From an uncultured Actinomycetes bacterium (GTDB lineage: Bacteria; Actinomycetota; Thermoleophilia; Solirubrobacterales; Solirubrobacteraceae): 43,951 nt of DNA. Below are positions 29,419 through 39,258 of the stretch, one piece after another. Each line of letters begins with the position of its first letter. Position 1 is the first letter of the stretch. The position numbers and the translations under genes are program-made. Location of the stretch: assembly GCA_937888775.1 (NCBI GenBank), contig CALAQT010000501.1, positions 1 through 43,951 on the forward strand, given 5' to 3'. The notes beneath the pieces are model-generated. The model was not told the origin of the DNA and searched no databases. It saw nothing but the letters and a program-made list of their open reading frames with translations.

Positions 29419-30075
29419 ATGGCTAACAAAACTGCGGCACCATGGGAAATCCCATATCCCGAAGCGGCCGACGAAATCAAAGTCTACCCGACGCTGGCGA
29501 AAGAACTCGCGGAACGTGTCGCCAAACTGCTCGGCGAACACGTCCTGACCTACAAAGCCCACGCCGCTTCCTACGAAGCTAAATCAGGCGAACTCGGGGA
29601 ACTCACGAAAACGGGGCAGACCGTCACCCTGCCCCTGGCAGCCACGGCCAATCAGATCATCGGTATCTGGATGGGAACCAGCGGAAGCGTCAAAATCACG
29701 ACCTCGGGGGGCGTGAACATCTTCGGTGACTTCATCACGGGGCAGGCCACTATCGAACTGACCGCCTATCAGCACGTCATCCTTCAATCCAATGGCGCGG
29801 GCTGGCTCATCCTCGCTGGTGAACCGAAGCGGACAGAAACCTACAGTGCCGCAAAAACCTTTACCAAAGCAGAAGCAGAAGCCGGGGTCGAACCGAGCGC
29901 CGCACGTCCTGCCTTTGTCCTCCTGGAAGGAGTCGGAGCGGCTGGCTCGACCGTCACCGTTGGAGGCGTCAATCTGAAAACTATGCCGAAAGAATCACGC
30001 CTTAGCTTTATTGTTCCACCGGGACAGAAATGGACTGCCGCCATAGAAGTCGTAGAGAATCACCTGCTTCTCTAA
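29419..30075 (+). CDS. Tail fibre or receptor-binding protein
   Basis: A 218-residue protein directly after the I-like gene, the usual fibre position. Residues 1-45 are helical and may attach to the baseplate. Residues 65-145 (QTVTLPLAATANQIIGIWMGTSGSVKITTSGGV, QHVILQSNGAGWLIL) and 170-218 are beta-rich. It is short for a fibre. It is the last virion gene; its stop touches the stop of the convergent minus-strand gene with no bases between. Confidence 0.65.
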   Translation: MANKTAAPWEIPYPEAADEIKVYPTLAKELAERVAKLLGEHVLTYKAHAASYEAKSGELGELTKTGQTVTLPLAATANQIIGIWMGTSGSVKITTSGGVNIFGDFITGQATIELTAYQHVILQSNGAGWLILAGEPKRTETYSAAKTFTKAEAEAGVEPSAARPAFVLLEGVGAAGSTVTVGGVNLKTMPKESRLSFIVPPGQKWTAAIEVVENHLLL

Positions 30076-30585
30076 CTACCGTCGGTGGTGCTTAGGTGCG
30101 TGGTGGTGCTTAGGGTGGTGGACGATGGGGGCTATGCAGCCAACCGAAAGCTCCTGCTCTTCTTCCTGCTGCCCCGACGCAAGTGGGCCGTCTCCTGGCT
30201 CACCTCCGCCGTACATGATGTTCGTTGGATCTGGACTATGCGCTGGATCGCTGGGGTTAGTCGCAGCAAAGTAGGATGTGCCAAGCACCAGATGGCCGAA
30301 CTCGTGAACGTAGTTACGACACATGTAGGCCGGGAAGGCTCTCCAGTCAAGGGCGGCCGAGAATGTGATTCCACAGGCGGTGAGGTCGGCGTAGGCGGGC
30401 TCCGTCGAGGGGATCACTGTGGCGAGGGTGAACGTCTCTCGTCCGCACGGTGGCTGGGAGACATGCCAGTAGGCGACCGCTACGCCGCGAGCCCAGGTTA
30501 TCTCCGCTGTGATTGGTCCTTCGGCTACCGCACTCCCCGGTAGAGCCAAGGCAAGAGCGGTGAGGATAAGGACTAGACGCTTCAT
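30076..30585 (-). CDS. Secreted metzincin-like zinc metalloprotease with His-rich tail
   Basis: A 169-residue protein from the ATG at 30585, coupled (TGATGA) to the lipoprotein gene. Residues 1-22 are a signal peptide (MKRLVLILTALALALPGSAVA). The zinc motif HEFGHLVLG has H94, E95 and H98. H116 (DPAHSPDP) is the likely third ligand, followed by NIMY with M124 as the Met-turn. Spacing to the third His is longer than the usual HExxHxxGxxH, so it is a divergent matrixin-like member. The tail is HHPKHHHAPKHHRR. Export and proteolysis at the host envelope are inferred. Confidence 0.72.
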   Translation of the reverse strand: MKRLVLILTALALALPGSAVAEGPITAEITWARGVAVAYWHVSQPPCGRETFTLATVIPSTEPAYADLTACGITFSAALDWRAFPAYMCRNYVHEFGHLVLGTSYFAATNPSDPAHSPDPTNIMYGGGEPGDGPLASGQQEEEQELSVGCIAPIVHHPKHHHAPKHHRR

Positions 30586-31049
30586 CAGCAACCCCTAACG
30601 CCCGAGCTAGCGAGACACGCTTCTTCTCGGGCTTCGATTCGACGGTTTTCCTGTTCGGCTTCTTGGTTCGCCTGTAGTTCCGCGAGGGTCCCGTGCGGGG
30701 CTTCGGGAGGACACGGTTCCGGTTCGCCCCGTTCAACGGCTTCACGGTTGTGATCGCCTTCTTCTTCTGAGGCTTTGGCGGTGGCCGGATGCCCGCATTC
30801 ACTGTGGGGTGTGGTGGTGGCTTCCGAGGGAGCGTGCTGGGCTTCTTCCTCGGCTTTGCGTGCATCATGCGATCGATCGGGTTTCTGGATGACGGGCCTC
30901 GGCTGATGTATCGGCATCTTGCCGAATGCTGGCGGCGCGTTCTGCGTTACGGCGGCTGGCGTGACCCTCGTGACGGCCGTCCGAGCCGAACCACAACCGG
31001 ACACCACGAGCAAGATAAGCACGGCAATGAGGGAGTAGGAGAGCTTCAT
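30585..31049 (-). CDS. Predicted lipoprotein
   Basis: A 154-residue protein. The ATG at 31049 is chosen because GGAGGG lies eight bases upstream and the ATG overlaps the previous stop. The signal MKLSYSLIAVLILLVVSGC ends in a lipobox with lipidated C19. The rest is Glu/Ala/Pro-rich, with further Cys residues and a charged coiled coil (ELQANQEAEQENRRIEAREE). Possible roles include surface exclusion or a lysis accessory; no family recognised. Confidence 0.65.
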   Translation of the reverse strand: MKLSYSLIAVLILLVVSGCGSARTAVTRVTPAAVTQNAPPAFGKMPIHQPRPVIQKPDRSHDARKAEEEAQHAPSEATTTPHSECGHPATAKASEEEGDHNREAVERGEPEPCPPEAPHGTLAELQANQEAEQENRRIEAREEACLASSGVRGC

Positions 31050-31231
31050 CCTTCGGCCCTCCGATCCCAACGCCTGCGCTCAGCGAGTCCGACCCGTTCG
31101 ATCTCGGCCGGCGTGGCGCTCATGCGCTCGAAGACGCCCTCAATGCGACGGCGGTCCTCTTGGGTCCTGCGCTCCTCCATCGTGCGGGACTCTACTACTG
31201 CGTCGGGTGGGGCTGTAGTCTGGGCTTGCAT
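31046..31231 (-). CDS. Small charged helical protein, first gene of the minus-strand unit
   Basis: A 61-residue protein, very rich in Glu and Arg (ESRTMEERRTQEDRRRIEGVFERM), predicted to be one long helix. AGGAGGT precedes the ATG and the 3' end overlaps the lipoprotein start. It could be an adaptor or regulator for the unit. No family recognised. Confidence 0.5.
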   Translation of the reverse strand: MQAQTTAPPDAVVESRTMEERRTQEDRRRIEGVFERMSATPAEIERVGLAERRRWDRRAEG

Positions 31232-31254
31232 GGGAGTCGTACCTCCTGTGCCAT

Positions 31255-31283
31255 GCCCCCGGACGTTGATCCGTCGCGGGGGC
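31255..31283 (-). ncRNA. 5'-leader hairpin element, copy A
   Basis: Read on the minus strand, a 7-bp stem GCCCCCG/CGGGGGC, a single bulged C, a 4-bp stem GACG/CGTC and a 6-base loop lie between the promoter and the ribosome site. AAGC precedes it and ATGG follows. Copy B at 36289-36317 has the same flanks, bulge and loop size but an inner stem of GCTG/CAGC, a compensatory change. This supports a functional RNA structure. Confidence 0.7.
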
Positions 31284-31299
31284 GCTTGATGTCCTCAGA

Positions 31300-31328
31300 G
31301 CAATAGCACTTGACCGCAGCCCTGTCAA
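31300..31328 (-). promoter_or_regulatory. Promoter of the minus-strand unit, TTGACA-17-TATTGC
   Basis: On the minus strand a perfect TTGACA (31323-31328) and TATTGC (31300-31305) are separated by exactly 17 bases, with an extended TGC before the -10. It is the best promoter in the window and would start transcription about 15 bases before the leader hairpin. Confidence 0.75.
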
Positions 31329-31361
31329 GCACCCTGGACAAACGTACTAAGGAGGCTCCTC

Positions 31362-31439
31362 ATGGGAGCACTAATCGATGTGCTGGTCTTCGTCGTCTTC
31401 GTCGTCGTGCTGGTCTGGGTAATCAAGCAGTTTGTCTAA
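31362..31439 (+). CDS. 25-residue membrane peptide
   Basis: A tiny frame after AAGGAGG: MGALIDVLVFVVFVVVLVWV then IKQFV. It is a single membrane helix with very short ends. The ribosome site is near perfect, and the next gene also has one, so it is probably real. It may be a lysis-associated or toxin-like peptide; function unknown. Confidence 0.55.
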   Translation: MGALIDVLVFVVFVVVLVWVIKQFV

Positions 31440-31455
31440 CGCAAGGAGGGCAAGG

Positions 31456-32088
31456 ATGGCCGATGAGACAATAACGTCCACGTCTCACCCGAAGAACGGT
31501 AACGACCCGTCCAGGAACGTCCTCGATCTCGTCGAGGCTGGGAATCAACGCCAGGACGACCTTCGCGTCTCAGAGGGCCTTCATGTCCGCGAGATAATCA
31601 ACCTACGCGCCGAGGAGCAGTCGAGCGAGACCGCGGCGATGCAATACGTCGAGCGGCTTCGGGCCGACCATGCGACGGAGCTACGCATAGCCGAGGCCGA
31701 GCGCATCAACGCGATTCGTGCGGTGGACGTGCAGGCGGTTCAGCAGGCCGCCCAAGTGCAGGACACCCGAGCGACGGCGCTTGCCGCGCAGGTGGCAGCG
31801 TCAGCGGAGGCGATGCGTTCACAGGTCGCCGCTACCACCTCAGCCGCCGCAACAGCGCTCGCTACGGCGCTTGCCCCGATCACGACCAGCATCGAGCAGC
31901 TTCGCCAGGCGATGTACGAGGCGCAGGGGCAGAAGACCCAGGTGGTCGAGACGCGGGCCAAGGGCGCGAGCATGGGTATGTGGTGGGGCGTCGTGCTCGC
32001 TGGCGGGATGGCGTTCCTGACGGTGCTCGTGGTCATCCTCATGGCTATCTCGGTTGCGGCGGTGGCTACTCACGGGTTCACGAAATGA
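31456..32088 (+). CDS. Coiled-coil protein with C-terminal membrane segment, lysis region
   Basis: A 210-residue protein from the ATG after AAGGAGGG. A long coiled coil (about residues 40-170) includes AERINAIRAVDVQAVQQAAQVQ and TALAAQVAASAEAMRSQVAA, a pattern I know from proteins beside phage lysis genes, of unknown role. The C-terminus (MWWGVVLAGGMAFLTVLVVILMAISVAAV) is a membrane helix or hairpin. It may work with the holin or anchor the lysis machinery. Confidence 0.65.
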   Translation: MADETITSTSHPKNGNDPSRNVLDLVEAGNQRQDDLRVSEGLHVREIINLRAEEQSSETAAMQYVERLRADHATELRIAEAERINAIRAVDVQAVQQAAQVQDTRATALAAQVAASAEAMRSQVAATTSAAATALATALAPITTSIEQLRQAMYEAQGQKTQVVETRAKGASMGMWWGVVLAGGMAFLTVLVVILMAISVAAVATHGFTK

Positions 32089-32201
32089 TCCACTTCCTCG
32101 CTTGGCTGCAACCGCGCAGCTCATCGACGAGTCTCAACCAAATGTCCCGGCAGGGATGCGGCTCATCCTCCCCGTCCGTTCCTGTCGGGGCAACTAACTA
32201 G
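32085..32201 (+). CDS. Possible 38-residue protein before the lysin
   Basis: A short frame with ATGA coupling to the coiled-coil gene, rich in Ser and Gln. Its end contains a CCCCG/CGGGG hairpin (32170-32190) before the AGGGAGG of the lysin gene, so this stretch may instead be a leader. Weak support. Confidence 0.25.
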   Translation: MIHFLAWLQPRSSSTSLNQMSRQGCGSSSPSVPVGATN

Positions 32202-32210
32202 GGAGGCATC

Positions 32211-32861
32211 ATGAACCTCACTCAACTCCGCGCCTCACTCGCACTCTGGCGCTCCCGGCTCCTTTACCGCTCCGCTCGCTGGAAGTTCTGGCAGGCGGCT
32301 CACAACAAGGCCGGCGTAGCCAAGTGGGAGAAGCTGCGCCTAGAAGCCATCGACCGGATCAACCTCCGCAAGAAGCAGATCGAAGAACTCCTACAGCCCA
32401 AGACGCTCACGATGTACGACAGCGTCGACGTGAGCACCGTGCCCGCGAACCCCCAGGCGGTCGCTGGTTACGTGGACGGCAAATACCAGACCTTCAACGG
32501 TCTGGTGAAGGCATTCCCGCACGCTCATCACCTTTCGATCGCAGTCTTCGCATCCGGCGATGGCGACTGCCTCGACGTAGAGACCGGCGACGCAAGCCCA
32601 TCCGAGGCCCCGGCTTGGGTTCGCCGCCAGAAAGCGAGAGGCGTCAAACGCCCATGCCTGTACGCCAACCTCTCGACGATGCCAGCTGTGAAAGAGGCGC
32701 TGTTGAACGGGCGCATCGGACGCCATGAAGTCCGGCTCTGGGTAGCCCACTGGACGAAACAGCCGCATATCCCACCGGGCTTCGACGCGTGCCAATACGA
32801 CGATGCCGCGCTAGGCCGAAATCTCGACGCCAGCCTCTGTGTCGGGAGCTTCTTCCGGTAA
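32211..32861 (+). CDS. Endolysin, GH25-like glycoside hydrolase
   Basis: A 216-residue protein after AGGGAGG. Residues 1-65 are basic and helical. Residues 66-216 form the hydrolase-like domain: MYDSVDVSTVPANPQAVAGYV, LSIAVFASGDGDCLDVETGDA with acidic catalytic candidates, RPCLYANLSTM, and FDACQYDD near the end. Such domains act as phage lysins on actinomycete walls. The end CVGSFFR is duplicated (PVGSFFN) at 33249-33272, beyond the HNH gene. Confidence 0.78.
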   Translation: MNLTQLRASLALWRSRLLYRSARWKFWQAAHNKAGVAKWEKLRLEAIDRINLRKKQIEELLQPKTLTMYDSVDVSTVPANPQAVAGYVDGKYQTFNGLVKAFPHAHHLSIAVFASGDGDCLDVETGDASPSEAPAWVRRQKARGVKRPCLYANLSTMPAVKEALLNGRIGRHEVRLWVAHWTKQPHIPPGFDACQYDDAALGRNLDASLCVGSFFR

Positions 32862-32870
32862 AATCTCGAC

Positions 32871-33239
32871 ATGGGTTACTTCGACTGTTGGGAATGGGAA
32901 GCAGGTTGTACGGCTGCAGGATACGGCATGATCACGACCAAGCAGCAGCATCGTTATGTCCATCGCTTGGCCTATGAAGAACTGGTGGGGCCAATCCCCG
33001 CTGGTCACCTGATCCACCACACCTGCTGCAACCGGGCTTGCTACAACCCGGCGCATCTAGCACTCTGCACCAATGCGACGCATCCCGACAATAGGCCGGG
33101 AAAAGAACGGGCTAAGACGCATTGTGTCAACGGCCATGTCTTCGATGACGAGAACACCTATGTTCAGCGCAATGGTCATCGCAAGTGCCGACGCTGTAAT
33201 CGCGAATACATGCGCCGTCGGCAACTAGCTGCAGCCTAA
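32871..33239 (+). CDS. HNH_3-type homing-like endonuclease after the lysin
   Basis: A 122-residue protein. The core VHRLAYEELVGPIPAGHLIHHTCCNRACYNPAHL is the HNH_3 pattern (H, then H, then N/H in a zinc-linked fold). The C-terminus (CVNGHVFDDENTY, HRKCRRCNREYMRRR) is a second zinc knuckle. It starts ten bases after the lysin stop and appears to be inserted between the lysin and a copy of its 3' end. There is no ribosome site of note, so it may be poorly translated. Confidence 0.85.
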   Translation: MGYFDCWEWEAGCTAAGYGMITTKQQHRYVHRLAYEELVGPIPAGHLIHHTCCNRACYNPAHLALCTNATHPDNRPGKERAKTHCVNGHVFDDENTYVQRNGHRKCRRCNREYMRRRQLAAA

Positions 33240-33272
33240 TCGTCCCGCCCTGTCGGGAGCTTCTTCAACTAG
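33240..33272 (+). pseudogene. Displaced copy of the lysin 3' end and terminator-like hairpin
   Basis: Directly after the HNH stop, TGTCGGGAGCTTCTTC (33251-33266) is identical to 32840-32855, the last codons of the lysin gene. In the same frame it reads RPVGSFFN stop, against CVGSFFR stop in the lysin. The same bases also form a TCCCG/CGGGA hairpin with a T-rich tail, so it may act as a terminator. Confidence 0.5.
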
Positions 33273-33284
33273 CAGGGAGGTGCC

Positions 33285-33545
33285 ATGCACAACGGCACCG
33301 ACAGGCACGCCGAACACCAGGACCGCGTCTCCACCGAGCGTCTGATCGCTCAGCGCAACCAAGCGCGTCTAGAACGCGACGACCTGCACCTCATTCTCAA
33401 GGAGCTGGTCCGGCTGAAGCTCGCCCCCAACTCAGCGCATTACAAGGCGGTAAGGATCGCCGCATGGCAGGCCGCTCGTAACGCAATCAACCCACAGGAG
33501 GAACCATGCTCGCCACCCTCACCGCCTCACCCGCCTCACATCTAG
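33285..33545 (+). CDS. Small helical protein before the holin
   Basis: An 86-residue protein after AGGGAGG. It is largely helical (RLIAQRNQARLERDDLHLILKEL) with a Pro-rich end. The holin start lies within its last 40 bases in another frame, so expression may be coupled. It may be a holin partner, but no family is recognised. Confidence 0.5.
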   Translation: MHNGTDRHAEHQDRVSTERLIAQRNQARLERDDLHLILKELVRLKLAPNSAHYKAVRIAAWQAARNAINPQEEPCSPPSPPHPPHI

Positions 33546-33832
33546 CCCTGCCCGTCGCCCAGATATGGGTGATCGTCGTGGCGCTCTTTACGCCCCTGCT
33601 CGGCTATGTCGTCAACACCAAGTTCTGGAAGGCAGCTCCTGAACCCGTGAAGGCTCTTGTGCAGATCGTGGTGGCCGCAGTTGCCGCTGGGATCACCACG
33701 GCAATCTCGACCAACGTGTTCGGGATCAATGCGGCGACCCTCCAACTCGTCATCACCGGCATCGTGACCGCTCTCGGAGCACACGCTTGGCTGTGGCGTC
33801 CATCCGGAGTCAGCGCTCATCTAACGAAGTAG
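33506..33832 (+). CDS. Holin
   Basis: A 108-residue membrane protein after AGGAGG. Hydrophobic segments lie at about residues 18-36 (IWVIVVALFTPLLGYVV), 50-68 (LVQIVVAAVAAGITTAI) and 80-98 (LQLVITGIVTALGAHAWLW), followed by a short polar tail. It should pore the membrane to release the lysin. The tail PSGVSAHLTK reappears as PSGVQAHLTK at 34431-34460 after the next HNH gene. Confidence 0.75.
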   Translation: MLATLTASPASHLALPVAQIWVIVVALFTPLLGYVVNTKFWKAAPEPVKALVQIVVAAVAAGITTAISTNVFGINAATLQLVITGIVTALGAHAWLWRPSGVSAHLTK

Positions 33833-33837
33833 AACGG

Positions 33838-34404
33838 ATGGCACTGACTCCAGGGCGGAAACGCGAGCGGAACCGCGTTCGGATGCGGGAATACCGCGCT
33901 GCACATCCCGAGAAGACGCGGGAGGTTGCGCGTCGTTACCGCGAAAGGTATCCGGAGAGGGTTCGCGCTGGGCTGCAGGCATGGGCAGCGAAGAACGCCG
34001 AGAAGAAGGCGGCCTACATGCGCCAATGGGCCGCCGAGAATGCCGAGGCACAGCGCGAGTATCAGCGTCGCTACTACGACGAGCACAAGGACCACAAGAA
34101 GCGGCTCATCAAGGAGGCCCGTCAGCGGCGTCGGCGCGCTGATCTAACGCGGTCCGCTTGGGAGACCCGTGCGCGCAAGTTGAAAGACCCTGACGCAATC
34201 GAGTTCGCGCGCGTGCTCCTCCACGACCCATGCGCCTACTGCGGACAGCCCGCGGCTCACATCGATCACATCGAACCGCAGTCCAAGGGCGGCGCGAACC
34301 ACTGGGACAACCTCACCGCTGCCTGTGGGCACTGCAACCCCCGCAAGCACACACGGTCGCTGCTCACCTTCCTGCTAACCCGCAAGCCAATGGAGGCAAT
34401 CTAA
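33838..34404 (+). CDS. HNH endonuclease with basic repeat domain, after the holin
   Basis: A 188-residue protein starting six bases after the holin stop. Residues 1-110 are a basic helical domain with imperfect repeats (RRYRERYPERVRAGLQAWAA, AYMRQWAAENAEAQREYQRR), probably for DNA binding. Residues 125-175 (CAYCGQPAAHIDHIEPQSKG, NLTAACGHCN) are a clear HNH domain with DH as the catalytic pair and two Cys pairs for zinc. It splits the holin from a copy of its 3' end. Confidence 0.88.
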   Translation: MALTPGRKRERNRVRMREYRAAHPEKTREVARRYRERYPERVRAGLQAWAAKNAEKKAAYMRQWAAENAEAQREYQRRYYDEHKDHKKRLIKEARQRRRRADLTRSAWETRARKLKDPDAIEFARVLLHDPCAYCGQPAAHIDHIEPQSKGGANHWDNLTAACGHCNPRKHTRSLLTFLLTRKPMEAI

Positions 34405-34460
34405 TGACTCTCGGAGAAATCATCGCGCCCTCAGGTGTCCAAGCGCACCTCACAAAATGA
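34404..34460 (+). pseudogene. Displaced copy of the holin C-terminus (18 codons)
   Basis: A short frame with its own GGAGG site reads MTLGEIIAPSGVQAHLTK. It parallels the holin end TALGAHAWLWRPSGVSAHLTK, with a three-residue deletion. Nucleotide identity is only moderate, so it is an old or differently derived end. It overlaps the next start by ATGA. Confidence 0.6.
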
Positions 34461-35185
34461 CTCGCGCTCTCGGCTGCATCATCCCGAAGGACAAATCCCA
34501 CGTCACCGCCAAACCGCTACGGGGGCTTGACAAACCGCCGGTGGATGTGCCGGCGGTCGTTGGCGTGAACTGGTACGACAGCTTCGACAACCCCAAAGAA
34601 ATGGCCTCCACGGCGGAAGGCATCTCCTACCACCTGCCGGATGTGGAAAAAGGCGAAAGCCTTGGCTCGGTCCGCGGTGGTCACTGCTTCTGCTTGGAGC
34701 CGATGGGAGCGGTCAAGGTCAATCGTGAGTCGCTGCGCGTCTTCTACAACCAAGGCGAAGAAGGCGCCTGCGTCGGTTTCGGCCACGCTCGAGCGCAGAG
34801 CATCATGCGTGGCTACAAGCTGTTCGACGCCTTCTGGCTCTACGACGAAGCGCGCAGACTGGAAGGCAACACGGGCGAAGGCTCGACGTGCCGCTCCGCC
34901 GTGCAGGTGCTCGAGACGCTCGGCCTGCGTGAACAGAACGGCAACGAAGTCTGCCTGCGCGATACGGGAGACGGGCCGGTTAATCCGAAGCTGGGGATCA
35001 AGACGGCTCGCTGGGCTACCACGGCCGATGAAGTCATGGCAGCTCTGGCACGTCCGAATGCCCAGGCCGTCCCGTTCACGAACAACTGGGGCGACGGCTA
35101 CCCGCTGACCTGCTGGCTGCCCGTCGCCACCCTTCAACGCCTCCTGGATGAGTCGGGGGAATGCGATGTGGAGACGGAGCTATGA
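34457..35185 (+). CDS. Papain-like (C1) protein with permuted catalytic segments
   Basis: A 242-residue protein. It has all main papain-like landmarks: NQGEEGACVGFG with Q99 and C105, RGGHC with H76, and FTNNWGDGYPL with N210. In known C1 proteases the order is Gln-Cys-His-Asn. Here the His segment (VVGVNWYDSFDNP to RGGHCFCL, residues 34-80) lies before the Cys segment. Residues 185-235 (RWATTADEVMAAL, then NNWGDGYPLTCWLPVATLQRLL) join directly, as if the His block were cut out and moved to the N-terminus. Whether it is active is unknown. Confidence 0.65.
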   Translation: MTRALGCIIPKDKSHVTAKPLRGLDKPPVDVPAVVGVNWYDSFDNPKEMASTAEGISYHLPDVEKGESLGSVRGGHCFCLEPMGAVKVNRESLRVFYNQGEEGACVGFGHARAQSIMRGYKLFDAFWLYDEARRLEGNTGEGSTCRSAVQVLETLGLREQNGNEVCLRDTGDGPVNPKLGIKTARWATTADEVMAALARPNAQAVPFTNNWGDGYPLTCWLPVATLQRLLDESGECDVETEL

Positions 35186-35835
35186 CCGAACACGAAGTGG
35201 TCACGGGCATGGTGCCCGTCAAGGCCTGGAGTCGGATTCCGGGCCTCTCATTGCAGAAGTTCAGCCTCAACGACCTAGCCCAGTTCACTCGGGAGAAGTC
35301 CTTTGACCCAAAGGACTCCGAAGACTTCCGCGTGCTCTACGTCGGCAGGGATGACGTGCACGATGCCCTCGCCTACGTCCTGAGTCGTTGCACGCGCAAC
35401 CTCAAGATGAACATGTTCGGCTACGACGACGATGGCCTGAACGGGATCATCGCCGGCCTAGTTGACAACGACCATGTCTTCGTCCAAGGCACGTTGGACA
35501 AGTCCCAGTCGGGTGGGATTCACGAGAAGAAGATCCTCGAAGGTTGGGACTCGGCAACCCGAGCCTCATTCGCCATCGGCGAGTCAGCCACCCATCAGAT
35601 CAGCCACACGAAGGGCGGAGTGATCGACGGCGTGCTCGCGTGGGAGGGCTCGACCAACTGGTCGGGCTCAGGCGAGGGGACCATCATCGCAGCAGATGGC
35701 TCAGACACTGGGCGTAAGGCCCAGAACAACACCTGCGCCTTCTACGTCAACCCGATCGAGATCATCAAGTTCTCCAACGAGCTCGACGAGGAGCACGCGA
35801 CCGTTCTTCAGCAGCAGTTGGCAGCAGCCGCGTAG
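35182..35835 (+). CDS. Phospholipase-D-like protein with one HKD motif
   Basis: A 217-residue protein starting in an ATGA overlap. The HKD motif is ISHTKGGVIDG with H142, K144 and D149 (HxKxxxxD), followed by the usual GSTNWSGSG. The first half (DDVHDALAYVLSRCTRNLKMNMFGYDDDGL) matches the N-terminal part of PLD-like nucleases, which act as dimers. Nuclease or phosphatidyl transfer are both possible. No signal peptide is seen, so it likely acts in the cytoplasm. Confidence 0.75.
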   Translation: MTEHEVVTGMVPVKAWSRIPGLSLQKFSLNDLAQFTREKSFDPKDSEDFRVLYVGRDDVHDALAYVLSRCTRNLKMNMFGYDDDGLNGIIAGLVDNDHVFVQGTLDKSQSGGIHEKKILEGWDSATRASFAIGESATHQISHTKGGVIDGVLAWEGSTNWSGSGEGTIIAADGSDTGRKAQNNTCAFYVNPIEIIKFSNELDEEHATVLQQQLAAAA

Positions 35836-35837
35836 CC

Positions 35838-36176
35838 ATGCTCGCCGCTCTTGCGGTCGTAGCACTGGTCAACCGAGAACGAGCGAGACACGACGAGCGC
35901 CCGCTGCTCATCTCAACAGCCCTCCAACGCGAAGCCCAGTCCCACCACGGTACCCAGCACACCCGCATACGAGCATGTAGAGGACCGAGGGGCCAGAACC
36001 TCGCGTGGGGATACGAGACGCCTCGAAATGTCGTAGAGGCATGGATGGCCTCTCCGGAGCATCGAGCGAACGTGCTCGATCCGGCGTACGTCTCGACAGG
36101 GGTCGGGGTCAGGACCGCGGGTGCGGCGACGGTTTACGTCGAGGACTTCTGCGGAAAGGGCGATCTTCCGTCTTGA
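35838..36176 (+). CDS. CAP/SCP-domain protein (YkwD-like)
   Basis: A 112-residue protein with the CAP core: ALVNRERARHDERPLLIST, GQNLAWG (residues 52-58), VVEAWMASPEHRANVLDP (65-82) and GVGVRTAG with VEDFCG. CAP proteins are common in actinobacteria as secreted proteins. Here no full signal peptide is seen; the N-terminus is short and hydrophobic (MLAALAVVALV), so it may be clipped. A virion or envelope role is unknown. Confidence 0.72.
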   Translation: MLAALAVVALVNRERARHDERPLLISTALQREAQSHHGTQHTRIRACRGPRGQNLAWGYETPRNVVEAWMASPEHRANVLDPAYVSTGVGVRTAGAATVYVEDFCGKGDLPS

Positions 36177-36268
36177 GCACCTGCTTGGCTGCCGCATCCC
36201 GCTACGGCGGATGACGCCGACTCGGGCGTAACCGGGCCGCCCCGTGGGCGAGCCGACCATAGACAGGG

Positions 36269-36274
36269 TAGACT
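36269..36274 (+). promoter_or_regulatory. Possible -10 element TAGACT before leader copy B
   Basis: TAGACT lies 14 bases before leader hairpin copy B, a spacing close to that of the minus-strand promoter. No good -35 element is present, so this is tentative. Confidence 0.35.
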
Positions 36275-36288
36275 CCGAAGCACAAAGC

Positions 36289-36317
36289 GCCCCCGCGCTG
36301 ATTGCACAGCCGGGGGC
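36289..36317 (+). ncRNA. 5'-leader hairpin element, copy B
   Basis: The hairpin has a 7-bp stem GCCCCCG/CGGGGGC, one bulged C, a 4-bp stem GCTG/CAGC and a 6-base loop. It is preceded by AAAGC and followed by ATGG. All of these match copy A at 31255-31283 (minus strand) except the inner stem, where both sides change together. It stands before the GGAGG of the HNH gene at 36346. Confidence 0.7.
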
Positions 36318-36345
36318 ATGGCCACACCTACGACGGAGGTGCGAC

Positions 36346-36750
36346 GTGCCGAAGGGTATTCCCCATCCCGAGCCATGCATGGTCGATGGTTGCAATGAGG
36401 CTCATTATTGCCGCGGCTACTGCGTCAAGCACCACGCGCGCTGGAAGCGTCATGGCGATCCCGATGTTGTGCTCCGGGAGCGAGGGCAATTCTGGGACCG
36501 CATCGACAAGGAGGTCGCGGCACCGTGCTGGCTCTGGACCGGCTCGCAGGACGGCAAAGGTTACGGCAAGACCGGCCGCGGTCGAGTGCATCGCGTCGTG
36601 TATGAGGCGCTCACCGGGTCTATCCCAGCCGACCTTCAACTCGACCATCTCTGCCGAGTCCGCAACTGCGTCAACCCCGCGCATTTAGAACCCGTCACGC
36701 CTCGCGAGAACGTACGGCGTGGACAACGCTGGCCTCAGACTTCCGCCTGA
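36346..36750 (+). CDS. HNH_3 endonuclease with N-terminal zinc finger
   Basis: A 134-residue protein from a GTG after GGAGG. Residues 10-40 (CMVDGCNEAHYCRGYCVKHHARWKRHG) are a Cys/His-rich finger common in homing nucleases. Residues 55-125 (PCWLWTGSQDGKGYG, HRVVYEALTGSIPADLQLDHLC, NCVNPAHLEPVTPREN) are the HNH_3 core with LDHLC and NPAHLE. It has its own leader hairpin and is flanked by a structured region, so it is likely a mobile insertion. Confidence 0.88.
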   Translation: MPKGIPHPEPCMVDGCNEAHYCRGYCVKHHARWKRHGDPDVVLRERGQFWDRIDKEVAAPCWLWTGSQDGKGYGKTGRGRVHRVVYEALTGSIPADLQLDHLCRVRNCVNPAHLEPVTPRENVRRGQRWPQTSA

Positions 36751-36816
36751 CTTTGGGCGAAGGCCCCCGCTACTCAAGGGGGGCGTAAGGGGCACGCCTG
36801 CTGGGTCTGCCCAAAG
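36751..36816 (+). other. Cloverleaf-like inverted-repeat structure
   Basis: An outer 8-bp inverted repeat CTTTGGGC (36751-36758) and GCCCAAAG (36809-36816) encloses two further hairpins: GCCCCC/GGGGGC (about 36763-36784) and GGCGT/ACGCC (about 36782-36798), which share a few bases. It begins at the base after the HNH stop. It is not a tRNA. It may be a terminator, a processing signal or part of a mobile element. Confidence 0.45.
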
Positions 36817-36854
36817 CGCAGAAAGGAAACCATTGACCGATCTACGTTGCCCTT

Positions 36855-37265
36855 GTGATAACGCTCGCGCTCATTGCGCCGGCGCATACGAACTCCAAGC
36901 CCATTCCAAGGAACTCCAAACATTTGGATCAGCACCACGCCTGCCGAACGGAGTTCTGCAAGCACCACGTAGGCATCGAGTGGGCCCGACGCCATAGACC
37001 GAAGTTCCGCATGACCGCATTCGAGGTCTGCGACGCCAACATGGAGAGCGGAGCGCCTGAAGACCCGTACAACCCGAGCCACATCAACTGGCGGATGGAA
37101 AGCGGGGGCTACGAAGGCGCGTTCTCGTGGCTGCCCTCAACGTGGGAACGTCAGCGCTTCCCCGGCTATCCATCGAGAGCCGTCGACGCCTCACCCGAAC
37201 GGCAGACCCTCGTGTTCCGCCGCTACAAAAACGTCGGCGAATGGCCCACGATGGCGAAATGCTGA
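36855..37265 (+). CDS. Transglycosylase/resuscitation-factor-like wall hydrolase
   Basis: A 136-residue protein, start uncertain (GTG at 36855 is the first possible start after a stop in frame). Residues 55-136 contain EVCDANMESGAPEDPYNP with probable catalytic E64, then NWRMESGGYEGAFSWLPSTWERQ and RQTLVFRRYKNVGEWPTMAKC, matching lysozyme-like transglycosylases of the Rpf/SLT group. The short hydrophobic start (MITLALIAPAHT) could be part of a signal. A fragment copied from the decoration gene start lies just upstream. Confidence 0.65.
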   Translation: MITLALIAPAHTNSKPIPRNSKHLDQHHACRTEFCKHHVGIEWARRHRPKFRMTAFEVCDANMESGAPEDPYNPSHINWRMESGGYEGAFSWLPSTWERQRFPGYPSRAVDASPERQTLVFRRYKNVGEWPTMAKC

Positions 37266-37338
37266 CCCAGACTTGGGCGTGCCCTCTCGCCCAATACAAC
37301 GGCCAACCGCTGAAAAGCGCGGCCGATAGCAGACAACG

Positions 37339-37376
37339 ATGCGCCGTCCTCTTCCTCGTGGGGGGCGGCGCATTTT
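37339..37376 (+). terminator. Intrinsic terminator after the lysis/accessory block
   Basis: A perfect 8-bp stem ATGCGCCG (37339-37346) and CGGCGCAT (37366-37373) is followed by TTT and a T-rich GTCGTTCTT. It lies about 75 bases after the last gene of the block, so it should end late transcription. Confidence 0.75.
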
Positions 37377-37554
37377 GTCGTTCTTAGTCTACGGTCCGAC
37401 CGTGATTTAGGCGCTCATGGTCTTTCCTCTCTTAGGGCGGAACACGGGGAGGTGATGGCAATGCCGTCGCCTCCTAGCTAGATGAATCTCCGGGACCAGC
37501 ATACACCCACTTGACGAGAGCGCTACGCTCCGCAAACGTAGTCAAACATAAGGT

Positions 37555-37585
37555 GCCCCGGCAGCGCGCTAGAACGCCCCGGGGC
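37555..37585 (+). other. Leader-type hairpin, copy D
   Basis: GCCCCGG (37555-37561) pairs with CCGGGGC (37579-37585). The arms and the preceding CG-rich right flank resemble copy C about 150 bases downstream. No clear promoter precedes it, so it could be a leader, a terminator for either strand or a protein site. Confidence 0.4.
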
Positions 37586-37679
37586 CGTCATCGAGAAGAC
37601 AGTCTCGACGCCGGGCCAGCATACCGAGGCTGTCCTCTCTCGGAAAATGGGGTATCTACTTAGCTGGCCCGATCTGTGG

Positions 37680-37685
37680 TACAAT
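37680..37685 (+). promoter_or_regulatory. Extended -10 element TGGTACAAT of the early operon
   Basis: TACAAT preceded by TGG forms an extended -10. No good -35 is present, as expected for extended -10 promoters. It lies 20 bases before leader hairpin C and about 70 bases before the first early gene. Confidence 0.55.
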
Positions 37686-37705
37686 CCAGCTACAGAACGA
37701 AAAGC

Positions 37706-37734
37706 GCCCCGGCGACGTGCAACCGCCCCGGGGC
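37706..37734 (+). ncRNA. 5'-leader hairpin element, copy C
   Basis: GCCCCGG (37706-37712) pairs with CCGGGGC (37728-37734); an alternative fold uses GCCCC/GGGGC plus GGCG/CGCC. It is preceded by AAAAGC, as in copies A and B, and lies between the -10 element and the AGGAGGAA site of the first early gene. The inner part differs from A and B, so it is a looser relative. Confidence 0.55.
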
Positions 37735-37756
37735 CTGACACCAGGAGGAACCCCTG

Positions 37757-37963
37757 ATGCAAGCCAAGCTTAGCCGGTACAAAGCCTTCCCGATGCCTGG
37801 AAACGGCTATCGCGTGTGGGACACGAAGCACCAGAGGAACGTGGCGCTGTTCCCGCTCGGCCGCTTTACAGCCGACGAGGCGCGCGATGAGGCCGAGGAA
37901 TGGGCGGCCCAGCGCAACGCGGGCAACGACATCGCCGCCCCGGAGGCTGATTCGCATGCCTAG
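37757..37963 (+). CDS. First early gene, small protein of unknown function
   Basis: A 68-residue protein with a strong AGGAGGAA site. It begins MQAKLSRYKAFPMPGNGYRVWDTKHQ and ends in an acidic helix (TADEARDEAEEWAAQRN). First in the early transcript, it may act in host takeover or regulation. No family recognised. It overlaps the next start by eight bases. Confidence 0.6.
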   Translation: MQAKLSRYKAFPMPGNGYRVWDTKHQRNVALFPLGRFTADEARDEAEEWAAQRNAGNDIAAPEADSHA

Positions 37964-38168
37964 GGGTGGGCAGTATGAGTTGGTGTTGCCCTTTGGCGAT
38001 CTACCCGTAGGCACGATCCTCTCTCCGACCGGCAAGGACGCGTTTGACTTCCTGGCCGGAGGTTCCACGGTCGCTATTGAGGTTGAGATCGACGGACGGC
38101 GACAGTGGCTCCACGCGCGGGCCGATGGGCCGCTGCGCGTCCGAAAGGTCGAGGAGCAGCCCGCATGA
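37956..38168 (+). CDS. Small beta-rich protein, unknown
   Basis: A 70-residue protein (YELVLPFGDLPVGTILSPTGKDAFDFLAGG, VAIEVEIDGRRQWLHARADGPLRV). It has the look of a small barrel. CGGAGG precedes the start and ATGA links it to the next gene. No family recognised. Confidence 0.5.
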   Translation: MPRGGQYELVLPFGDLPVGTILSPTGKDAFDFLAGGSTVAIEVEIDGRRQWLHARADGPLRVRKVEEQPA

Positions 38169-38341
38169 CGCCCGCTGCGAGCGCGGACTACCCGCGCACC
38201 TTCAAGGACTTCATCGAGCGGTTCGACACGGAGGAGGCGTGCCTCGCCTACGTCGAGCAGGGTGATGGATCAGAGGCCGGTGGGGGAGGTGCTCAAGAAC
38301 TTTCCTCGAGAGCCCTTGACAAGCCCGAGACGATCGGCTAG
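38165..38341 (+). CDS. Short protein resembling the start of IS1595-family transposases
   Basis: A 58-residue frame. Residues 9-31 (YPRTFKDFIERFDTEEACLAY) match the N-terminal pattern of the IS1595-type transposase zinc-ribbon domain (P-T-xxF-xRF-xxEEAC-xxY). The CPxC zinc ribbon and the rest of the transposase are missing; the tail is Gly-rich. It may be a remnant of an IS1595 element or a reused adaptor. It ends inside the promoter of the next gene. Confidence 0.45.
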   Translation: MTPAASADYPRTFKDFIERFDTEEACLAYVEQGDGSEAGGGGAQELSSRALDKPETIG

Positions 38342-38344
38342 CGT
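38316..38344 (+). promoter_or_regulatory. Internal promoter TTGACA-17-TAGCGT
   Basis: A perfect TTGACA (38316-38321) and TAGCGT (38339-38344, TAnnnT type) are separated by 17 bases. The predicted start at about 38351 is only four bases from the ATG at 38355, so the message would be leaderless or nearly so. Confidence 0.65.
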
Positions 38345-38354
38345 GGCGATATCA

Positions 38355-38519
38355 ATGGATGCGCAAGCGAGCAAAGATCAATCGGCGATTCTAGTCCGGC
38401 TACCACGCCAAACGCACGACGCGTTGAAAGCACTGGCGGACCAGGAACAGCGCACGATGGCGGGCCAACTCCGCTATCTCATCGAGCAGGCCACGGGTCT
38501 TCGAGAGGCCGCGGCATGA
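38355..38519 (+). CDS. Ribbon-helix-helix regulator
   Basis: A 54-residue protein (ILVRLPRQTHDALKALADQEQRTMAGQLRYLIEQA) with the Arc/MetJ ribbon-helix-helix pattern: a beta strand, helix 1, a turn and helix 2. These bind DNA as dimers. The ATG at 38355 is preferred because it follows the promoter; an in-frame ATG at 38262 would give 85 residues. It may repress its own promoter and other early genes. Confidence 0.68.
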   Translation: MDAQASKDQSAILVRLPRQTHDALKALADQEQRTMAGQLRYLIEQATGLREAAA

Positions 38520-38884
38520 ACTCTTTTTTTGAGCCTCCGGTTTACATAACATGCAGTCCCGAGCGAAGCGGTCTGCCCCAGCGGTTCATCAATAAGTGCG
38601 AGATCGGGGCTGTCCCAGAGCATCGGCCGGACCTTGGACCGTGCTGGCTTTGGACAAGCTCAGTCTATCTGAAATACGGCCGATTCTGGTTCCAAGGTCG
38701 GAACGTCCTCGCCTACAAACTGGCCTATGAGCTGACCGTTGGCTCCGTGCCTGACGGGCTGGTGCTCGACCATCTCTGTCGCAACGAGCCATGCGTCAAT
38801 CCGGGCCACTTGGAGCCCGTGACGCAGCGCGTGAACCTGCTGCGTGGGCTGGGCACATCCGCAGCCAAGAGGCTCATCGCATGA
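38516..38884 (+). CDS. HNH_3 endonuclease in the early operon
   Basis: A 122-residue protein, ATGA-coupled to the RHH gene. The core PCWLWTSSVYLKYGRF, VLAYKLAYELTVGSVPDG and LVLDHLCRNEPCVNPGHLEPVTQRVN is the HNH_3 pattern with LDHLC and NPGHLE. It contains somewhat more A and T near its start (CTCTTTTTTTGAG) than its neighbours. It is probably a free-standing mobile nuclease. Confidence 0.85.
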   Translation: MNSFFEPPVYITCSPERSGLPQRFINKCEIGAVPEHRPDLGPCWLWTSSVYLKYGRFWFQGRNVLAYKLAYELTVGSVPDGLVLDHLCRNEPCVNPGHLEPVTQRVNLLRGLGTSAAKRLIA

Positions 38885-39258
38885 CTCTCGCCAAGTCGCT
38901 CCCCGCGGTGCTCGCCTTCGCCCTCCTGTCATTCTCCGCCACGGCGAGCGCGCATTCCCGTCGGCACCACGGCAAGCACCACGTAGCAGCTCATCGCGTC
39001 CGGCATCATCCGCCGCGCAGCGCGGGCATCAACGATCTTCCGACGGGAAGCCCAGGTAAGGGAGCCAGTGGGACGCCACAAGCGCAAACGGCTCCCTTAC
39101 CGCAACCCGAGCCCGAAGGCCCGGCCATGGTATTCGAGGAACACGTTACAACTCCCGCCGAACTAGAGGAACTGTATCGAGACGTAGAAGCGTCTGAAGC
39201 AGGCGGCGAACCGCCTACGCCCGCGGAAGAAGAACAGAGCGTGGAACCGGAACCATGA
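38881..39258 (+). CDS. Secreted His-rich protein
   Basis: A 125-residue protein. Residues 1-24 (MTLAKSLPAVLAFALLSFSA, cleaved after TASA) are a signal peptide. Residues 25-48 are His/Arg-rich (HSRRHHGKHH), followed by a Pro/Gln/Glu-rich linker and an acidic tail with a helix (TTPAELEELYRDVEASE). Metal binding is possible. Exported small early proteins of this kind may change the host surface. Confidence 0.6.
   Translation: MTLAKSLPAVLAFALLSFSATASAHSRRHHGKHHVAAHRVRHHPPRSAGINDLPTGSPGKGASGTPQAQTAPLPQPEPEGPAMVFEEHVTTPAELEELYRDVEASEAGGEPPTPAEEEQSVEPEP

Follow-up and report, generated by a model that had tools for sequence, protein, structure and literature searches.

Hairpin copies in an actinophage-like window

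The stretch analyzed here, hereafter the window, comprises the 43,951 nucleotides (nt) of contig CALAQT010000501.1 (GenBank assembly GCA_937888775.1, from an uncultured bacterium assigned to the Solirubrobacteraceae) and corresponds to an actinophage-like genome that has no close relatives among isolates: the isolate phage collection gave no near match to the DNA of positions 30000-39000, the best-ranked isolate terminase is 40.3% identical, all 1792 isolate terminases fall below 60%, and the closest viral contig, L001, stands at 55%. We focus on a hairpin that recurs at promoters in this window and in many other phages and chromosomes, and whose copies are, judging from sequence, very probably genes for cis-encoded antisense RNAs, each lying over the start of a protein gene and each predicted to yield an RNA of about 65 nt that would block the translation of that gene.

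The original prediction had described three copies, namely A (31255-31283, minus strand), B (36289-36317, plus strand), and C (37706-37734, plus strand), and we found all three as described, with the same stems, bulge, loops, and flanks. The paired change of the upper stem from GACG/CGTC in A to GCTG/CAGC in B is correct, and so is the location of both hairpins 14-16 bases after a -10 element, as we counted 16 nt between the -10 and the stem in A and 14 in B; the same distance is 20 nt in copy C, whose upper stem contains one A.C, that is, a U.G on the other strand. The window contains three occurrences of the underlying pattern (AAGC followed by GCCCCSG...CSGGGGC), and 100 dinucleotide shuffles contain none. 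The original prediction had overlooked a fourth copy, D (37555-37585, plus strand). A scan based on architecture only, in which the stem sequence is left free, returned exactly A, B, C, and D, when 10 block-shuffled windows gave one match. Our covariance model, R1, gives 63.3 bits to A, 59.6 to C, and 56.7 to B, which belong to its own 19 seeds, and recovers D at 37547-37602 with 29.1 bits (E 3.7e-5).

For copies A, B, and C, the predicted antisense RNA, whose 5' end is placed from its spacing to a -10 box, would run opposite the leader of a gene. At copy A, an RNA of about 65 nt (31228-31292, plus strand; fold of -35.5 kcal/mol) would face the 5' untranslated region (UTR), Shine–Dalgarno sequence, and start codon of a minus-strand gene at 31046-31231, whose 61-amino-acid (aa) product has no PHROG match. 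The -10 box of this RNA, TAGTCT (31216-31221, plus strand), reads AGACTA on the mRNA strand and falls within the open reading frame (ORF), the hairpin of the original prediction, read on the other strand (31255-31283, plus), becomes the predicted terminator stem, and the whole is predicted to fold as (((((((((......)))))))))...(((((((((((......)))).))))))). The facing sense promoter, identified by eye, consists of TTGACA, 17 nt, and TATTGC (31300-31328, minus strand), with no strict TANNNT. At copy B, the predicted RNA of about 67 nt (36280-36346, minus strand) has a -10 box TACCCT at 36353-36358 and a predicted terminator stem at 36289-36317 (both minus strand), and would face the leader of an HNH endonuclease gene (HNH_3, Pfam E 5.6e-13; 36346-36750, plus strand) together with the first base of its GTG start codon, at 36346. 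At copy C, an RNA of about 64 nt (37697-37760, minus strand), with its -10 box TAAGCT at 37767-37772 and its predicted terminator stem at 37706-37734 (both minus strand), would face the leader and start codon of a 68-aa frame (37757-37963, plus strand) that opens the right-hand plus-strand ORF block and has a weak Arm-DNA-bind_3 match under the curated cut-off; the block includes a DNA methyltransferase and a RusA-like resolvase. Copy D is predicted to be a free-standing RNA of the family (37546-37611, minus strand; fold of -33.8 kcal/mol): it has both of the hairpins described below and a -10 box TATGCT (37618-37623, minus strand) 32 nt after the first of them, and no Shine–Dalgarno sequence or ORF was seen opposite. 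Copy D, which lies about 150 bp upstream of copy C, may either stand free as an RNA of its own or have decayed. Across the whole window, no match attains the gathering score of any Rfam family, and at E ≤ 5 the 36100-37900 region returns only a sub-threshold P10 match.

Promoter-like boxes and folding on the opposite strand

A first pattern scan of viral contigs returned at least 120 stretches, whose contexts fall into two classes, ordinary terminators versus about twenty copies with full anatomy (-10, AAAGC, hairpin, linker, GGAGG, and start codon); the many matches that were ordinary AAAGC...GCTTT terminators were excluded by eye. R1 was built from 19 hand-picked full-anatomy sequences, window copies included. 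It matched all 21 records at E ≤ 1 (16 of them had seeded it, and G021 matched only at 0.006), and gave 45 matches in 66 further viral loci, as well as 21 matches in 80 genome loci and 10 in 38. Ninety-nine further distinct copies were gathered from viral contigs and chromosomes, mostly of Thermoleophilia. The set analyzed below holds 103 matches (102 distinct) in 100 sources chosen for having matches, and as such is not a survey. With the outer stem left free, the architecture scan yielded 125 matches in 757 kb of match loci versus 4 in 809 kb of other loci. The search for relatives supports the claim of a covarying structured RNA element recurring at the promoters of unrelated genes, as it recovered many covarying copies adjoining promoters.

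Downstream of the hairpin, hereafter P1, the motif ANNNTA, which on the opposite strand reads as TANNNT, the actinobacterial -10 box, occurs at 27-38 nt in 99 of the 102 distinct copies versus 0-2% in other 19-nt windows, with an enrichment ratio (computed with a pseudocount) of 44 versus 2.6 for the runner-up among motifs of this shape; TANNNT itself is found on the sense strand of the same window downstream of P1 in 8 of 102. The position of ANNNTA lies outside R1 and is measured from P1, independently of ORF calls, and was therefore not selected for by the model search. Counted by clusters of unrelated downstream DNA, the motif is present in 82 of 85. ORF-based counts use 87 of the 102 copies, the other 15 being dropped for want of a usable start codon (13) or P1 (2): among these 87, 85 have an antisense -10 at the gene start, versus 13 of 326 control gene starts, and 83 have a TA at +10 to +21 inside the ORF, versus 53 of 326 controls. 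In 82 of these 83, the base four positions ahead of the T is an A, and the motif occurs in all three frames (55, 15, and 13 cases), for which reason we rejected conservation of the ORF start at the peptide level. This fixed spacing of TA and A across different frames is what made us drop the sense-leader reading.

The antisense -10 (85 of 87 sites) also resembles the sense -10 of the same loci (57 of 87 sites): both have C or G at position 3, a G two bases upstream is found in 70% of the sense and 54% of the antisense sites, and an A just after the box in 1% on both strands. These facing promoter-like boxes are roughly 90-110 bp apart. Where found, the sense -10 mostly starts about 20-26 nt before P1, which places the hairpin near the predicted 5' end of the mRNA, and P1 is then followed on the sense strand by a conserved linker and the Shine–Dalgarno sequence. 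In Mycobacterium tuberculosis, the mapping of transcription start sites places TANNNT ahead of 73% of the primary and 76% of the antisense ones and shows no conserved -35 (PMC3898074). In our set, pairing in the 5' hairpin of the antisense RNA begins 7-9 nt from the last T of the antisense -10 in 98 of the 99 RNAs that have this hairpin (100 were folded), and the expected +1 is therefore the base of that hairpin.

Covariation is seen in both hairpins. In the 19 seed sequences, 94.7% of the P1 cells are paired, with 18 two-sided changes versus 5.5 in shuffles; in the 102 distinct rows of the model-fitted alignment, 97.8% are paired, with 98 two-sided changes versus 23.7. Between P1 and the start codon there is a second hairpin, P2, whose arm or loop holds the Shine–Dalgarno sequence: perfect stems of at least 4 bp are present in 86% of the 87 copies, versus 45% after swapping halves between copies (at most 59% in 200 swaps) and 35% in 326 control leaders. 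RNAalifold, applied to 68 antisense sequences, predicted both hairpins, 9 of the 15 pairs having a two-sided change in at least one sequence. As for the outer stem, 17 of the 125 architecture matches do not read GCCCCSG from the first pair; by eye, 7 of them are standard stems lengthened by one G-C pair, 2 appear to be spurious, and the remaining 8, like a further copy in L151, have other outer pairs that compensation has preserved. The lower stem thus also varies, though rarely, and we rejected the idea that its invariance is itself functional, such invariance being largely an effect of the search method. A pseudoknot between the P1 loop and the ORF was looked for by eye, and none was found. 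The hairpin of the original prediction is real, and its extent was incomplete, as the element goes on through P2, across the Shine–Dalgarno sequence, and enters the ORF for ~20 nt.

Wherever one strand forms a G.U pair, the other has an A.C mismatch, and in this respect the two strands of the element differ. On the sense strand, P1 has 16 A.C versus 2 G.U cells, with 13 of the 16 A.C at one pair. In the 87-copy set, the energy of P1 is lower on the antisense strand in 71 copies, and that of P2 in 62 versus 24. We folded the predicted antisense RNAs of 99 copies and of D, each beginning 7 nt beyond the -10 and ending with the U-tail (lengths of 60-71 nt): by eye, nearly all have a 5' hairpin of ~9 bp that a short linker joins to the P1 hairpin, after which comes a tail; those of L166 and L218 fold otherwise. 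Once folded, P2 contains 176 G.U pairs on the antisense strand versus 13 on the sense strand; P2 pairs are more numerous on the antisense than on the sense strand in 87 of 100 cases and less numerous in 3, and the total folding energy is lower for the antisense strand in 93 of 100. Control leaders follow the opposite trend, with the antisense strand lower in 126 and the sense strand in 179 of 326. The tail after P1 contains on average 5.3 U in 9 nt over the 87 copies. This U-tail is the reverse complement of the conserved AAAAGC lead-in, which the original prediction had noted and which we reread as the antisense U-tail rather than as a feature of a leader. Finally, a start codon and a Shine–Dalgarno-like motif are found between P1 and the antisense -10 in 87 of 102 copies under an automatic rule, and the predicted net pairing in the window amounts to -86 to -98 kcal/mol for cognate partners versus -2 to -25 kcal/mol for non-cognate ones.

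On the basis of the antisense -10, the U-rich tail after a GC-rich hairpin, the folding of two covarying hairpins on the antisense strand, and the overlap with the ribosome-binding site, we infer that the antisense RNA is transcribed, terminated, paired with its target, and repressive. RNA polymerase would start from the TANNNT located within the first ~20 nt of the ORF, read the opposite strand, and yield an RNA of ~60-70 nt starting near the target's start codon. This RNA would fold into a 5' hairpin in which its own 5' end is paired and a GC-rich 3' hairpin equal to P1, after which transcription would stop in the U-tract, as at an intrinsic terminator. It would be fully complementary to the mRNA of the facing promoter over the 5' UTR and Shine–Dalgarno sequence, up to the start codon, and pairing, probably begun by loop contacts, would keep ribosomes from binding and leave the duplex open to RNase III, such that the target gene would stay silent unless its mRNA outruns the antisense RNA. 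All in all, the module, consisting of two facing promoters and two hairpins, would fit in about 110 bp.

Several observations weigh against this interpretation. ANNNTA is missing from 3 of the 102 copies (L403, L405, and the match at 11139 of L191), -35 elements are only marginally enriched on either strand, the strict sense TANNNT is present in only 57 of 87 copies and absent from copy A, and a promoter scan gave no site in 30900-38100; to these may be added the 15 of 102 copies without a usable start codon or P1. Doubly changing pairs (5 versus 3.6, reached in 42 of 500 shuffles) and further pair types (11 versus 9.9) are not notably numerous in the fitted alignment, because the lower stem is strongly conserved, partly as a result of the way copies were found. 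As to termination, the U-tract begins 2 nt past the stem and is interrupted in copy A (GCUUGAUGU); a simple terminator scan, whose rule omits bulged stems, flags no P1 hairpin as such and only an overlapping 5-bp stem at B, its total of 8 sites being near the shuffled mean of 5.5 (standard deviation of 2.1).

Distribution across genomes and target genes

The original prediction had presented the element as phage-encoded; its presence in chromosomal genome samples means that it is not phage-specific. Within the order of Solirubrobacter soli, the Solirubrobacterales, 39 of 151 sampled genomes carry it at E ≤ 1e-5 (5 of the 39 were previously known carriers), as do 36 of 299 within its class and 10 of 396 within its phylum; these samples, from which all genome frequencies are taken instead of from the 102-copy set, overlap, were drawn with strict filters, and always include the centre genome. 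The genome matches above 45 bits all lie on contigs labelled Solirubrobacterales, Solirubrobacter, Conexibacter, Thermoleophilia, or Actinomycetota. A good match of 41 bits (L222) was seen in a metagenome-assembled genome labelled Rokuibacteriota, and a Brachybacterium contig (L248, 4774-4829, plus strand) and an IMG/VR contig (L196, 719-774, plus strand) share the same P1, with 29.1 bits each. The latter two copies suggest that the element reaches past Thermoleophilia. Within a genome, 5' hairpins differ among the copies listed; strict diversification of loops is not supported, as an identical P1 is found in two copies of G022 (the cultivable Solirubrobacter soli DSM 22325, L346 and L352, both complete) and of G029 (L359 and L366).

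The genes behind the element are diverse. On the phage side (56 targets), Pfam identified HNH_3 in 10, Phage_integrase in 3, Endonuclease_7 in 1, and Bro-N in 1, the latter behind the copy of L020 (E 2.4e-21); we take Bro-N to be a domain of phage antirepressors. The 28 chromosomal targets, a count that leaves out 3 of 31 (L412, L350, and a 78-aa call in L399), include 3 with Phage_integrase, 2 DDE transposases (L351 and L411), 1 Resolvase (L345), and 1 Cas1 (L343). Many targets are small unknown proteins, several of which have signal-peptide-like starts by eye. The recognisable targets do not form a toxin family as a whole, and the small ones without a Pfam match could still be toxic.

Some of these loci have particularities of their own. 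Three loci resembling insertion sequences (L351, L411, and L423) contain two elements each, one before a DDE transposase-type gene and the other facing it from ~1.4 kb away; the second element of L411 precedes a small ORF, and the transposase is assigned by Pfam in L351 and L411 and by sequence only in L423. Two kinds of chromosomal targets of ~90-240 aa recur, each alike by eye, one in L340, L341, L371, L344, L373, and L411 and the other in L342, L359, L396, L404, and L362; Pfam returned no match for the targets of L340, L341, L342, and L373. The frame with the Cas1 domain (L343, 1561-2673, plus strand; E 1.2e-18) has a zinc-finger-like N-terminus by eye. In the window itself, four HNH endonuclease genes lie within ~6 kb (32871-33239, 33787-34404, 36346-36750, and 38516-38884), a CAP-domain gene (cysteine-rich secretory protein family, 35838-36176) directly precedes copy B, and a conventional terminator-like site with a 15-bp stem and a T-rich tail (37338-37374, plus strand) is found upstream of D. 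TTGAC...GTCAA inverted repeats upstream of D (37511-37545, plus strand) and at the promoter of A (31310-31328, minus strand) may represent a shared operator.

Other readings, known systems, and biological meaning

The original prediction had taken the hairpin for a 5'-leader RNA acting on the sense strand, through message stabilisation, attenuation, or the recruitment of an antitermination factor; a put-like binding of a regulatory protein may be counted with it. The proximity of the hairpin to the predicted mRNA 5' end, about 20-26 nt after the start of the -10 in most copies where one is found, and the conserved linker and Shine–Dalgarno sequence that follow P1 would fit such a leader. However, a sense leader leaves unexplained the ANNNTA located at fixed spacing within ORFs (99 of 102 copies), the excess of A.C over G.U on the sense strand, and the weaker folding of that strand, and while a put-type element, as in HK022, calls for a structure selected on the sense transcript, the G.U/A.C asymmetry favours the antisense strand; we thus regard this reading as very improbable. 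If the facing promoters are what matters, the short RNA itself could do little, and the module would act through the collision of polymerases or as an insulator against readthrough. The 90-110 bp between the facing boxes and a terminator-like hairpin that would stop antisense transcripts are both consistent with this, but interference alone requires no 5' hairpin, when two covarying hairpins and an expected RNA 5' end at the base of one of them imply selection on the RNA, such that we consider it improbable, if less so than a sense leader.

Two further possibilities accept the antisense RNA and differ as to what it does. These RNAs might mainly act in trans, as a cross-regulating family involved in multi-copy inhibition between relatives or in the regulation of host genes by phage copies, of which D would be a free-standing member or a decoy. 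A scaffold common to all loci, the identical P1 pairs of G022 and G029, a copy D without an ORF, and the non-cognate pairing of D and C, at -20 to -21 kcal/mol among the better values, go in this direction; yet cognate pairing in the window is far stronger than any non-cognate pairing and 5' hairpins differ among the copies listed per genome, which leaves trans action as the main role unlikely, although it is the alternative to which we grant the most credit. The RNA could conversely activate its target by opening an mRNA hairpin that hides the Shine–Dalgarno sequence, as reported for Asr9 of ISPpu9, an activating antisense RNA (PMC8450116). By eye, the sense P2 does pair or enclose the Shine–Dalgarno sequence in most of the listed copies, but the RNA covers this sequence itself and reaches the start codon, and the duplex would hide both; activation seems to us the least probable of these readings, marginally behind a sense leader. 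A cis-encoded antisense RNA that blocks translation remains the reading that we retain.

Among known systems, RNA-OUT of IS10 comes close to such an antisense RNA: it has 69 nt, of which the first 35 are complementary to the translation initiation region, and its pairing blocks ribosome binding (PMC5006887). Like the RNA predicted here, it is a short opposite-strand RNA that matches the region where translation of a mobile-element gene begins. RNA-OUT, an Rfam family, serves one transposase, whereas here one scaffold serves many unrelated genes and combines two hairpins with a terminator-like end of its own at the mRNA's 5' edge; no Rfam match reached its gathering score in the window. On the phage side, P22 sar inhibits antirepression and the 77-nt OOP RNA of lambda promotes the decay of the cII mRNA (PMC5415839). 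Like them, the RNAs predicted here would be phage-encoded antisense RNAs on control genes, the copy of L020 preceding a Bro-N gene. To our knowledge, sar and OOP are single-locus RNAs of enterobacterial phages rather than a family recurring at unrelated genes. Asr9 is likewise antisense to the 5' UTR of a transposase gene, but it has about 180 nt, is reported to activate, and involves a 244-nt 5' UTR (PMC8450116). In SymR/SymE and other type I toxin–antitoxin pairs, the antisense RNA is also encoded in cis to its target (PMC5415839), as predicted here, whereas the recognisable targets of the present family are endonucleases, recombinases, and transposases and not a toxin family. Within the open-licence literature on Conexibacter, Solirubrobacter, Solirubrobacterales, and Thermoleophilia, judged by title and the start of the abstract, no regulatory-RNA study was found; likewise, no description of this RNA family was found in the open-licence literature, where the broader antisense studies gave the systems compared above, among the matches listed. 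The cis-antisense brakes on mobile genes that we know of mostly consist of one RNA per locus. The mechanism is of a known kind, and the family appears to be new, with one scaffold shared by many unrelated genes in the phages and chromosomes of one class.

From an evolutionary perspective, a single antisense design may have been recruited repeatedly as a brake on genes that are unrelated and often mobile, in a bacterial class as well as in its phages, with P1 as the common scaffold, a 5' hairpin that co-evolved with each ribosome-binding site, and solo copies such as D freed as trans regulators or decoys, through which phage and host RNAs would cross-regulate each other; we believe and doubt this wider scenario in equal measure. 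One compact module recurs at genes for HNH endonucleases, integrases, transposases, a resolvase, a Bro-N protein, a Cas1-domain protein, and small unknown proteins in the phages and chromosomes of Thermoleophilia, a soil class, and it may constitute a mechanism by which these elements keep dangerous genes quiet. It also offers a means of searching soil metagenomes for mobile cassettes, dozens of natural and apparently orthogonal antisense/target pairs, and a testable case of RNA cross-talk between phages and their hosts.

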